Source: Prochlorococcus sp. AG-442-M23 (lineage in GTDB: Bacteria > Cyanobacteriota > Cyanobacteriia > PCC-6307 > Cyanobiaceae). From it: a stretch of 64,000 bases of DNA. Below, piece after piece: positions 21,766 through 29,811 of this stretch. The notes under the pieces are model-generated. The model did no database searches. It was not told where the DNA came from and was given only the letters and a program-made list of their open reading frames with translations. How positions within the stretch are numbered: position 1 is the first letter of the stretch; each line of letters begins with the position of its first letter. The position numbers were made by a program, and so were the translations under genes. The stretch lies in contig QCPW01000002.1 in NCBI GenBank assembly GCA_003209655.1, positions 1 to 64,000 on the forward strand, written 5' to 3'.

Positions 21766-21783
21766 AAAAATAAGTTATTATCA

Positions 21784-21970
21784 AGGTACTGGATCTTTGG
21801 TCAAGTTCTTCTTTATGTGCTCTGATCTGACTCTTTTTCGACTCGAGGAGACTGTCGTGATGTGGACGTAAACCAATCCTGTAATTGGAAACGAAAGCCC
21901 ACTTTGACTCCTCTTCTGGCTTTTCCAGGTCGACGCTCAGAGGACTGACGGGGATCCGGTATTACCTATC
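21784..21970 (+). ncRNA. ssaA: 6S RNA (6Sa), regulator of RNA polymerase
   Basis: Directly behind purK lies about 185 bases that are clearly richer in G+C than the flanks and do not encode a protein. The ends pair: TACTGGATC at 21787-21795 with GATCCGGTA at 21953-21961 (one G-U pair), giving the long terminal stem expected of 6S RNA. The position downstream of purK matches known cyanobacterial 6S genes (called Yfr7/6Sa in Prochlorococcus). Exact ends are approximate. 6S RNA binds the housekeeping holoenzyme by imitating an open promoter. Confidence 0.85.
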
Positions 21971-25836: not shown

Positions 25837-26502
25837 ATGTCTACTTTCCTTATTACAGGTTCAAATAGAGGGATTGGATTGGAATTATGTAAACAACTTA
25901 TCGAGAGAGGAGATGCAGTAATAGCAACATGTAGAAAGGCTTCTTTAGAATTAAAGAACTTAGGTGTAAGAATTGAAGAAGATGTAGACATCTCTTCAGA
26001 AGATTCAATAAACAATTTGAAGCAAAAATTATTAGGGGTCGAATTAGATTGTTTAATTAATAATGCCGGTATTTATGAATTTAATTCTATTGATGATTTG
26101 GATCAGCAAAGTATCATTCGTCAATTTGTAGTAAATGCTTTAAGTCCACTTTCATTCACTAAATCACTTAAAAGTCTCTTGAAAAACTCTTCAAAGATTG
26201 CTTTTATAACGAGTCGAATGGGATCTATTGGTGATAATTCATCAGGTAGTTCCTATGGCTACAGGATGTCTAAAGTGGCATTATCTATGGCAGCGAAATC
26301 ACTATCAAGAGATTTGTTAAAAGAAGAAATTTATGTTGCTATTTTGCATCCAGGATTAGTAAGTACTCGCATGACTGGATTTACAAAATATGGAATATCT
26401 ACAGAAGAATCTGCAAATGGACTAATAAAACGTATCGACTCTCTTAATAAAAATAATACCGGTACATTTTGGCATACTAATGGAGAGATTTTACCTTGGT
26501 AG
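25837..26502 (+). CDS. Short-chain dehydrogenase/reductase
   Basis: 221 residues. The NAD(P)-binding motif is GSNRGIG at residues 7-13, NNAG is present, and the catalytic Ser and Tyr-x-x-x-Lys occur as TSRMGSIGD and YGYRMSKVAL. Substrate cannot be predicted. Length is slightly short for the family but all core motifs remain. It is flanked by small-gene clusters on both sides. Confidence 0.85.
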   Translation: MSTFLITGSNRGIGLELCKQLIERGDAVIATCRKASLELKNLGVRIEEDVDISSEDSINNLKQKLLGVELDCLINNAGIYEFNSIDDLDQQSIIRQFVVNALSPLSFTKSLKSLLKNSSKIAFITSRMGSIGDNSSGSSYGYRMSKVALSMAAKSLSRDLLKEEIYVAILHPGLVSTRMTGFTKYGISTEESANGLIKRIDSLNKNNTGTFWHTNGEILPW

Positions 26503-26623
26503 ATTTAACTGAAAAGCTCTAACTAATATTTTATAAAAATTTGATTTGTTAAAAAAGCTTTAAATTTTAATTAATTTAGTTTCTTTATTTAATCGTTTTG
26601 GTTATGTTTAGAAAAATATTAGT

Positions 26624-26635
26624 AAAGGAGGTGAT
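26624..26635 (+). promoter_or_regulatory. 12-base exact complement of the 16S rRNA 3' end (extreme Shine-Dalgarno)
   Basis: AAAGGAGGTGAT matches the full anti-Shine-Dalgarno tail of bacterial 16S rRNA. Most genes in this window have weak or no Shine-Dalgarno sequences, so this stands out. GGAGG ends 7 bases before a TTG codon at 26639, a good initiation spacing. Confidence 0.6.
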
Positions 26636-26638
26636 TCA

Positions 26639-26761
26639 TTGTCGTATCTACCGAAAATTACGGTTACAAAAGAGGCCGTGAAATCAGTATCTACAACCTT
26701 TTCATTGGTCTCTTATTCTTTAATAAAGAAGAAAGGTTTTATCATTAATAGATTTATATAG
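26639..26761 (+). CDS. Candidate 40-residue protein translated from a perfect Shine-Dalgarno
   Basis: TTG at 26639 to TAG at 26761 gives MSYLPKITVTKEAVKSVSTT followed by a hydrophobic-basic tail (SLVSYSLIKKKGFIINRFI). It sits between the extreme Shine-Dalgarno and a strong terminator, so a short transcript of about 190 bases is likely. A second frame starting at GTG 26631 would give a 16-residue very basic peptide (IHCRIYRKLRLQKRP after the start); the two frames cannot be separated by eye. Alternatively the RNA itself is the product. Confidence 0.4.
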   Translation: MSYLPKITVTKEAVKSVSTTFSLVSYSLIKKKGFIINRFI

Positions 26762-26782
26762 AAAAATCTAAATATCAATAAA

Positions 26783-26817
26783 AGCTCTGCAACTTCTAAG
26801 TTACAGAGCTTTTTTTA
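26783..26817 (+). terminator. Strong intrinsic terminator
   Basis: AGCTCTG (26783-26789) pairs with CAGAGCT (26804-26810), and inside it AACT pairs with AGTT around a TCTA loop; eight T follow (26810-26816 region). An A-run precedes it, so it could also serve the convergent glutamine amidotransferase gene, whose stop overlaps its T-run. Confidence 0.85.
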
Positions 26818-27546
26818 TTTTTTGCTTAGTAAATTAAAAAGCTTATTTATTAACATTTTTCTTTTTAAGATTGTTTTTCCTTCAAATTTTTCATCTTCCT
26901 CTCTTAGAATTTCCTGACCCTTTGGTCCTAATCCTTTGTTTACAAATAATTTATCCTCATTAATCCATCTTTCGGTCATTTCTTTACTTGACTCGATGTG
27001 AAATTGTAATCCGTAGGCAAAATCCCCAATCTTAAAGAATTGCTCTTTACAACGTTTACTACTAGCAATGAGCTCTGCATTTTTGGGTAATAAAATCCTA
27101 TCGCCATGCCAATGCAGGACATGAAAAGGAGTTTCACAAAACTTGTTTAAGTCATTGTCTGATTGATTAAAAAAAACTGGAGACCATCCAATTTCTGGCA
27201 AAGGTTTAGGGGGTGATCCATAGTTTAAAGTTTCAACATCTCCTCCTGCTGCTTTCGCTAATAACTGCGCTCCTAAACAAACCCCGATAATACTTGTCTT
27301 TTTTCTTAATTCTGACTTTATAAAATCGCTCTCAGATTTTAGCCATGGATATTTTATGCTTCCAATATCTTTGACGCCCATAGGTCCACCCATTATTAAA
27401 ATTAAATCTTCTTTATTGGTTTTAGGAAGTCCATCTCCAAGGTCTAGGCGAATGATTTCAATATCCATTTCTCTTTCTTTAGCTATCTGATTAAAAAGCC
27501 CTGGCCCCTCGATTTCCAAATGCTGTAAAACTAATAGACGTTTCAT
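26815..27546 (-). CDS. Class I glutamine amidotransferase domain protein
   Basis: 243 residues with the nucleophile elbow GVCLGAQLLAKAAGG (catalytic Cys), and the His-Glu pair in LQFHIESS. It resembles stand-alone GMP-synthase-like amidotransferases and gamma-glutamyl hydrolase-type proteins rather than a biosynthetic GuaA. No synthase domain is attached or adjacent, so the acceptor is unknown. Confidence 0.82.
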   Translation of the reverse strand: MKRLLVLQHLEIEGPGLFNQIAKEREMDIEIIRLDLGDGLPKTNKEDLILIMGGPMGVKDIGSIKYPWLKSESDFIKSELRKKTSIIGVCLGAQLLAKAAGGDVETLNYGSPPKPLPEIGWSPVFFNQSDNDLNKFCETPFHVLHWHGDRILLPKNAELIASSKRCKEQFFKIGDFAYGLQFHIESSKEMTERWINEDKLFVNKGLGPKGQEILREEDEKFEGKTILKRKMLINKLFNLLSKK

Positions 27547-29285: not shown

Positions 29286-29409
29286 CAAATCTTAAATTTC
29301 AAAATCAAATCTTAATGTTATCTTTCTAAAAAAAAATTTGCGTGATATTTTTTACAAAAAATTCTTATATTTTATTTCGCACATAGAAAATTCATTTTAA
29401 TCTACAAGC

Positions 29410-29449
29410 TGTGGAAAAACCTGTTGAAAAAGGGTGAAAAAGTGGATAA
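29410..29449 (+). repeat. Cluster of four DnaA-box-like 9-mers
   Basis: Within the 526-base gene-free stretch 29286-29811 are four tandem 9-mers in the same orientation: TGTGGAAAA (29410-29418), TGTTGAAAA (29422-29430), GGGTGAAAA (29432-29440) and AGTGGATAA (29441-29449). The first is the exact complement of TTTTCCACA, the DnaA box reported for cyanobacteria; the last is one mismatch from the complement of TTATCCACA. No replication gene is near. Nothing else was recognised in this stretch. Confidence 0.5.
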
Positions 29450-29811
29450 CTCGTCGGGATCATAGTAAAAACAGGGTTTTTTGGCTTATTTTCTGAGTAT
29501 TAATACTTCATCAATAAATGATTAAATATAGTTTAATAATCAATAAAACTTATTGAAATAACAATGGGATCATTACTTTTCTAAAAAAAAAGATATTTAT
29601 GGAATCTAAAGAATTTGTTGTTAATGAAATATGATTTTTTATGTTGAAGATGTTTCAAAATAAAAATTTTAATTTATCAAAAATTTTACAAATTTTAATT
29701 TTTTGAAATTTTTTAAATTATTTAAAAATAAATAATTCGGTTTTCTCTCTGGTTTGTTTTTCTATTTAGAAAATTTATCGAATAGATTATCAGGACATTA
29801 ATAAAACAAAA

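Follow-up and report, generated by a model that had tools for sequence, protein, structure and literature searches.

A candidate 40-codon gene behind an unusually strong Shine-Dalgarno site in Prochlorococcus, with relatives in other genera

Few photosynthetic organisms are as abundant as Prochlorococcus, whose genome is streamlined. Several described systems share individual traits with the locus presented here; the papers are cited for those parts of each that were accessible. In Flavobacteriales the rpsU gene, which encodes bS21, carries an extended Shine-Dalgarno sequence with pairing energies of -14 to -21 kcal/mol (PMC9976891). Work on strain MED4 judged that Prochlorococcus likely does not rely on Shine-Dalgarno sites (PMC5607370). 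IF7/IF17, CfrA/PirC, Ssr0692 and NblD are small cyanobacterial regulators that bind larger proteins (PMC7760959), and in the mRNAs of type I toxins such as aapA3 a short ORF has a Shine-Dalgarno site that may be sequestered in hairpins extending into the coding sequence (PMC6733600). For Prochlorococcus itself, PMC2518516 lists 14 RNAs in its Table 1, among them Yfr RNAs, and reports 113 new short ORFs in its supplement (Table S2).

The locus lies in a window of 64,000 nt of Prochlorococcus DNA, the whole stretch that was analysed. It resembles the rpsU of Flavobacteriales in having a very strong 16S-complementary site in a lineage mostly without such sites, here ranked in the window only, and in the length and energy of the pairing (PMC9976891, accessible part). 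Unlike rpsU it starts with TTG, has a structured coding region and would encode a short orphan peptide, for which no ribosomal homology turned up. With the small cyanobacterial regulators (PMC7760959, accessible part) it has in common that the gene is small and easily missed, although its peptide has no sequence family match. With the aapA3-type mRNAs it shares the short ORF behind a site that hairpins may hide (PMC6733600, accessible part); unlike the toxins the peptide looks polar by eye, and a consensus scan found no antisense gene. As for the Yfr RNAs of PMC2518516, a short stand-alone transcript between genes is predicted, but it appears to be protein-coding and falls outside Rfam and, as far as the accessible part of that paper goes, outside the 14 rows of Table 1. 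We regard the feature as real and best read, from its conservation, as a small-protein gene in a structured mRNA that has no existing annotation. We consider it probable (about 0.72) that this is a stand-alone gene shared by Prochlorococcus and its sister genera; none of the family libraries searched contains it. The features are given in Table 1.

Table 1. Features of the mini-gene and its neighbours, by position in the window.
Feature	Position	Strand	Remarks
SDR (short-chain dehydrogenase-like)	25837-26502	+	Upstream neighbour; name judged from sequence
Candidate -10 element TATGTT (TAnnnT)	26603-26608	+	18 nt ahead of GGAGG; recurrence in relatives
Extended Shine-Dalgarno AGGAGGTGATTC	26626-26637	+	12 pairs with own 16S tail; GG[A/G]GGTGATTC in 80/80 loci read
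Predicted hairpin enclosing part of the Shine-Dalgarno and the TTG start	26627-26649	+	RNA folds
Putative small-protein gene, TTG start, 40 codons, stop TAG: MSYLPKITVTKEAVKSVSTTFSLVSYSLIKKKGFIINRFI	26639-26761	+	Open frame across relatives; codon-level conservation of the end
Long hairpin within the coding region (high-light type)	26670-26714	+	Folds; kept mostly via one-sided changes
C-terminal tail KGFIINRFI	26732-26758	+	INRFI ends 55/61 out-of-genus matches; preceding residues vary, G[FYL][IMVTLY]
Hairpin across the stop codon	26749-26770	+	Window fold; low-light-type counterpart covaries at 2/8 pairs
Intrinsic terminator hairpin and T run	26780-26817	+	Window fold and scan; 9/10 stem pairs with two-sided changes in low-light-type relatives
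Glutamine amidotransferase-like gene	26815-27546	-	Convergent downstream neighbour; name judged from sequence

A preliminary description of this DNA had reported a 12-base stretch perfectly complementary to the entire 16S tail. The stretch, AAAGGAGGTGAT, is present at 26624-26635 and is the sole exact copy in the 1.63-Mb genome. As the reversed control pattern was likewise found once, a single copy is unremarkable by itself. The 16S rRNA of the same genome ends in GGATCACCTCCTAAC and not in ...CCTTT, which leaves the leading two A's of AAAGGAGGTGAT unpaired; the T and C after it do pair and shift the helix to AGGAGGTGATTC. The earlier observation is thus confirmed in part: AGGAGGTGATTC pairs with GGAUCACCUCCU over 12 positions, 11 of them Watson-Crick and one G-U, with an energy of -21.9 kcal/mol, which is within the 9–13 pairs of rpsU-type sites. 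Of two low-light-type examples, one forms 11 Watson-Crick pairs (-23.6 kcal/mol) and the other 12 (-24.8 kcal/mol), and across the examples the site of this unit yields 11–12 pairs and -20.5 to -24.8 kcal/mol.

Sites were ranked within the 64-kb window by considering as many as six starts in each of 64 long ORFs. Uninterrupted matching to the 16S complement extended over at most 8 bases in one of these ORFs, 6 in four and 5 or less in 59, compared to 10 at the mini-gene. Within the window this is in good agreement with the weak Shine-Dalgarno usage claimed previously. When bulges were included in the duplex energy, two of the window ORFs reached -19.2 and -16.0, the former at a run of glycine codons within a longer ORF. 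The exceptional site offers a handle on whether and when ribosomes of the Prochlorococcus lineage use such pairing. It could, as in the rpsU of Flavobacteriales, serve as a sensor of ribosome state that is read mainly by ribosomes with a free anti-Shine-Dalgarno tail and whose product feeds back on the 30S subunit. The energies at or beyond the range given for rpsU (PMC9976891, accessible part) and the judgement that Prochlorococcus likely does not depend on Shine-Dalgarno sites (PMC5607370, accessible part) speak for such a sensor. We nevertheless hold it to be unlikely: the gene is not rpsU, the bS21 gene found elsewhere in this genome lacks a strong site at the single start codon that was checked, no link between peptide and ribosome emerged, and the strength of the site was ranked within the window. 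A resemblance to bS18 was rejected, having an E-value of 1.3 and being absent from the profile search.

The region is 80–92% identical in 25 same-genus genomes, and its conservation is therefore above chance. All or most of it was found in 26 of 37 same-genus genomes, its own included, at E < 1e-50, and in none of 23 genomes from other classes at that threshold. In a sample of the family, 60 of the 68 same-genus genomes match the peptide over its full length (E 1.7e-11 or better). The mini-gene was not found in the other eight, all of high completeness (G002, G023, G236, G416, G428, G432, G438, G443). These eight also have no SDR gene. We do not take this as linkage of the two genes, since they are adjacent and one deletion suffices to explain their joint absence. 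Retention in 60 of 68 sampled genomes of a streamlined lineage, together with the relatives in other genera, makes it likely that the mini-gene is useful to its host.

Searching with two peptide patterns, one of which required KGFII, yielded 144 loci from Prochlorococcus single-cell and cultured genomes and a few uncultured Synechococcaceae. The sample includes P. marinus MIT 9107 and MIT 9314, which we take to be high-light strains. All of the best 80 of these 144 loci have the site, the TTG start and 40 codons; GG[A/G]GGTGATTC is present in 80/80, as is GG[A/G]GGTGATTCATTG together with the 40 codons. The peptide ends in KGFIINRFI in 79 of the 80 and in KGFIINKFI in one. The SDR gene adjoins the mini-gene in these 80 and in a further set of 25 high-light loci (105/105). 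On the other side, the convergent amidotransferase-like gene was found in 6/25 and 20/80 high-light loci, although contig ends truncate some of these loci.

Behind the site the preliminary description had placed two overlapping frames, and both exist: one of 40 codons starting at TTG and one of 16 codons starting at GTG. Of the suggestion that a peptide is made, the part that concerns the TTG frame is supported by conservation. The stretch 26624-26761 is gap-free in 26 aligned sequences and the TTG frame is open in 26/26; with the site in 80/80 loci, the concern that neither a frame nor the 12-mer might be conserved did not materialise. The GTG frame found no such support and was rejected as a gene, as it is cut short in 2/26 aligned sequences, keeps its 16 codons in 72 of the best 80 of 144 loci and starts inside the Shine-Dalgarno sequence.

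Among 26 sequences collected by DNA similarity, the last 12 codons of the TTG frame show 13 changes, of which 10 are synonymous against 5.5 expected (nominal P 0.002), and 8 of the 10 variable columns there are third positions (nominal P 0.0006). Both P values are nominal because the stretch was picked after looking and the sequences are related. Over the whole frame 17 synonymous changes were counted against 14.3 expected, an excess that is not significant (P 0.23).

Relatives in other genera were surfaced by a profile search as short frames sharing the C-terminal end, and 20 loci were fetched. One is a diverged high-light-type member, L156, whose middle is largely different and which keeps MSYLP, RGFIINRFI and a final K. 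Of the other 19, 15 have the site and the TTG start (e.g., MSHLPIGQESM...PALKGFIINRFI); such other-genus relatives have 30–35 residues of the form MS[YH]LPIGQESM...LKGFIINRFI and stand behind GGAGGTGATCC. The remaining four (L142, L143, L144, L146) start with ATG, read ML...LL[KN].KGFIINRFI over 26 residues and do not have the strong site, which puts the tail on a different N-terminus in four genera. An exact DNA pattern for the C-terminus hit 101 of the 400 family genomes, at one place in each and across 15 of 59 genera; the reversed control had no match in the result table. Sixteen further candidates were inspected; three proved to be non-members and 13 members, of which 12 carry a residue change (G[FY][IMVTLY]INRFI). 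Going by their small genomes, we infer that the other genera carrying the unit are of the low-light type.

A search blind to the tail used as query only the 86 bases of the 5′ part. It matched 121 of the 400 family genomes. Of these, 60 are the same-genus genomes (of 68) that the peptide search had found and 61 belong to other genera; all 61 out-of-genus matches were examined. The peptide ends in INRFI in 55. Four (L294, L295, L296, L299) keep the site, the TTG start and the N-terminus without the tail, ending instead in LAPAFFK, LAPAFFLDR, LFYNL and LAPAFLMQSEK, so that the 5′ part can evidently do without the tail. The last two are a remnant (L297) and a chance match (L298). When the four ATG-type genomes are added, tails are found in 119/400 genomes and 16/59 genera. 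Neither the C-terminal pattern nor the 5′ DNA search gave a credible member in the genera of the family with larger genomes; a 5′ DNA match of E 1.1e-4 in one of these (G295) has no site and two codons, and was set aside as chance. Outside the family, the matches of a class-level profile search were all weak and scattered, with E-values of 0.002 or worse.

The 55 tail members, selected by their 5′ DNA, show where the peptide is constrained. Over their last nine codons and the stop, 2, 3 and 9 columns are variable at codon positions 1, 2 and 3, respectively, whereas for the middle 12 codons the figures are 11, 11 and 10 of 12. INRFI and the stop are free of residue changes, and variation in the five INRFI codons is confined to third positions and to AGR/CGT for Arg. 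As 55 of 61 out-of-genus matches end in INRFI with only synonymous changes at this end, we conclude that the peptide is probably under selection. Lengths change by whole codons (30, 32, 33, 40 and 41; 35 in L258). The synonymous bias expected of a small-protein ORF is therefore present at the C-terminal end, in sets not selected by the tail, and was not found for the middle or for the frame as a whole. An AlphaFold model of the peptide was unusable (pLDDT 59).

The unit thus consists of two parts, each of which is also found without the other; in one genome (G085) the tail-less 5′ form L294 and the ATG-type tail form L144 lie ∼32 kb apart. All four tail-less forms carry a hairpin, GGAGTCAAT...GCTCC or GACTCC, followed by a T run, which looks like a terminator: an internal GGAGTC... 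pairs with the ...GCTCC or GACTCC directly ahead of the T's. The terminator scan, which allowed loops of 3–8, reported none in these forms; their loop is longer. Most lineages likely carry a fusion, in which a 5′ mini-gene with its own terminator, contributing the site, the start and MSYLPIGQESM, would have been joined to a 3′ mini-gene contributing the tail, the stop hairpin and the terminator. The reverse, fission of one gene into two parts, may have occurred instead. The gene context differs between genera. With its parts occurring both separate and joined, the unit is a natural case of a tiny gene built from smaller units.

A ribosome-titrating RNA had also been proposed, and such an activity is not needed to account for the locus. 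The broader idea behind it keeps some ground, since the 5′ part also occurs without the tail: this part, with its site, start and internal hairpins, could be a functional RNA that engages 30S subunits or acts as a switch, coding being secondary there. The strong hairpin and T run in each of the four tail-less forms are consistent with this, and in L296 the block CTCCTGCC is kept in the DNA though the frame is shifted there, a hint that the block matters as RNA. Further, the CTCC of relatives can pair either with the Shine-Dalgarno site or with the internal GGAG. At the other end of the gene the final two codons, TTTATA (26753-26758), are spelled identically in 99 of 101 pattern hits, as counted by eye, despite six allowed spellings; this nucleotide invariance exceeds what the peptide needs, and the motif sits in the loop of the stop hairpin. 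Conservation of the tail at the amino-acid level and length changes by whole codons argue the other way, and we find a functional RNA an unlikely explanation. If the 5′ part did act as RNA, the tail-less RNA would be ∼100 nt long and end at CTCCTGCCTTTTTT.

Joining the fusion to the ribosome sensor discussed above gives a bolder scenario, in which a 5′ sensor module and a 3′ tail formed a mini-gene readable chiefly by ribosomes with a free anti-Shine-Dalgarno sequence, the INRFI tail reporting or adjusting that state. It would be an independently evolved, peptide-based counterpart of rpsU autoregulation, an analogy that we consider quite unlikely to hold.

As an mRNA, the unit comprises a very strong Shine-Dalgarno site, a TTG start, an ORF of 30–41 codons and a terminator. 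The terminator noted in the preliminary description was recovered as a terminator-like hairpin at 26780-26813 with T's behind it. In the scan it was called for the - strand alone, against 0.1 expected; the + strand gives the same fold. No sigma-70-type promoter was reported by the scan on the + strand, the candidate TATGTT included. A TAnnnT element 18 nt ahead of GGAGG is found in 109 of 126 high-light-type sequences. Among 35 low-light-type sequences it stands at 17, 18 and 19 nt in 18, 11 and 5, respectively, and a second TAnnnT candidate stands at 6–8 nt in 11, 9 and 5 of the same 35.

In the low-light-type alignment 96.5% of cells in the predicted structure pair, and 50 cells have two-sided changes compared to 15.0 in shuffles and at most 15 in slid controls. 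This covariation stems from the terminator and the stop-codon helix. Next to no variation is seen in the helices predicted to mask the site (GGAG with CTCC) and the start codon (CCATTG with CAATGG), and the pairs of the 26627-26649 hairpin show zero variation in 18 sequences, so that covariation lends this hairpin no support. The hidden start codon and site are therefore a prediction from folding. Single-sequence folds of six examples without the terminator were weak, with z-scores of 0.49 to -1.59, and the fold of the window transcript with the terminator gave -3.54.

A short ORF behind a strong site that the mRNA fold may hide is also the architecture of toxin mRNAs with short Shine-Dalgarno-hiding hairpins (PMC6733600, accessible part), and would fit a type I toxin-like gene whose small peptide is controlled by an antisense RNA. 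We consider this improbable. The peptides look polar by eye, no membrane span being obvious; the two promoter-like sites on the minus strand fall outside the gene and are not above chance; and the SDR neighbour is constant in all the high-light loci counted above. Over the mini-gene the consensus scan, a weak method, reported no minus-strand promoter. A possible antisense promoter on TTTATATAG was inspected by eye and discarded, there being no TAnnnT fit.

The short ORF, the terminator and the covarying helix near the stop codon would likewise suit a leader peptide or attenuator of a downstream gene; the preliminary description had named a regulatory leader peptide, though one with no gene downstream. 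The next gene in the window is convergent, however, which argues against a leader; no same-strand gene that could be regulated was found before it, and the varying context between genera points in the same direction. We consider this reading highly improbable.

For the small-protein gene itself, our favoured function is a conditionally translated microprotein that acts through its tail, drawn in part by analogy. The predicted mRNA fold partly hides the site and the start codon and would thereby make translation conditional, and the long pairing with 16S rRNA is predicted to let 30S subunits open the folded mRNA. The peptide would then act in trans by binding a partner with its tail, like several small regulatory proteins of cyanobacteria.

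The peptide has no family match in Pfam or NCBIfam, and Rfam (15) gave no match above the gathering score, the sub-threshold matches falling mostly on the terminator. To judge from the sequence, the mini-gene is an overlooked 40-residue gene that is new to these libraries. The strings 'GFIINRFI' and 'MSHLPIGQESM' had no match in the papers covered by a text search. The accessible parts of PMC7368042, PMC5069720, PMC3898218 and PMC7760959 do not mention the mini-gene, and by its position relative to Yfr17 it is not among the 14 Table 1 RNAs in the accessible part of PMC2518516. It is possible that it has been listed before as an anonymous ORF, either among the 113 ORFs of PMC2518516 or in Additional file 4 of PMC3898218, both papers being available in part. 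The Yfr17 RNA itself matches Rfam at 29302-29566 of the window (+, 220.5 bits), 2.7 kb downstream of the unit, and 6S RNA matches at 21783-21966 (+, 89.3 bits).

A phage origin was considered and rejected. Neither a protein search of viral contigs nor the site-plus-start pattern turned up a relative there, and blastn against phages gave E-values of 0.3 or worse among the 20 of 25 matches listed. The C-terminal pattern had four hits, all unrelated frames on inspection; three of them end in INSFI because the pattern also admits Ser.

One further observation concerns variation within the genus. The peptide of one high-light relative (L010) combines the 5′ type of one high-light group (KITVTK) with the 3′ type of the other, which suggests recombination inside the 120-bp gene.
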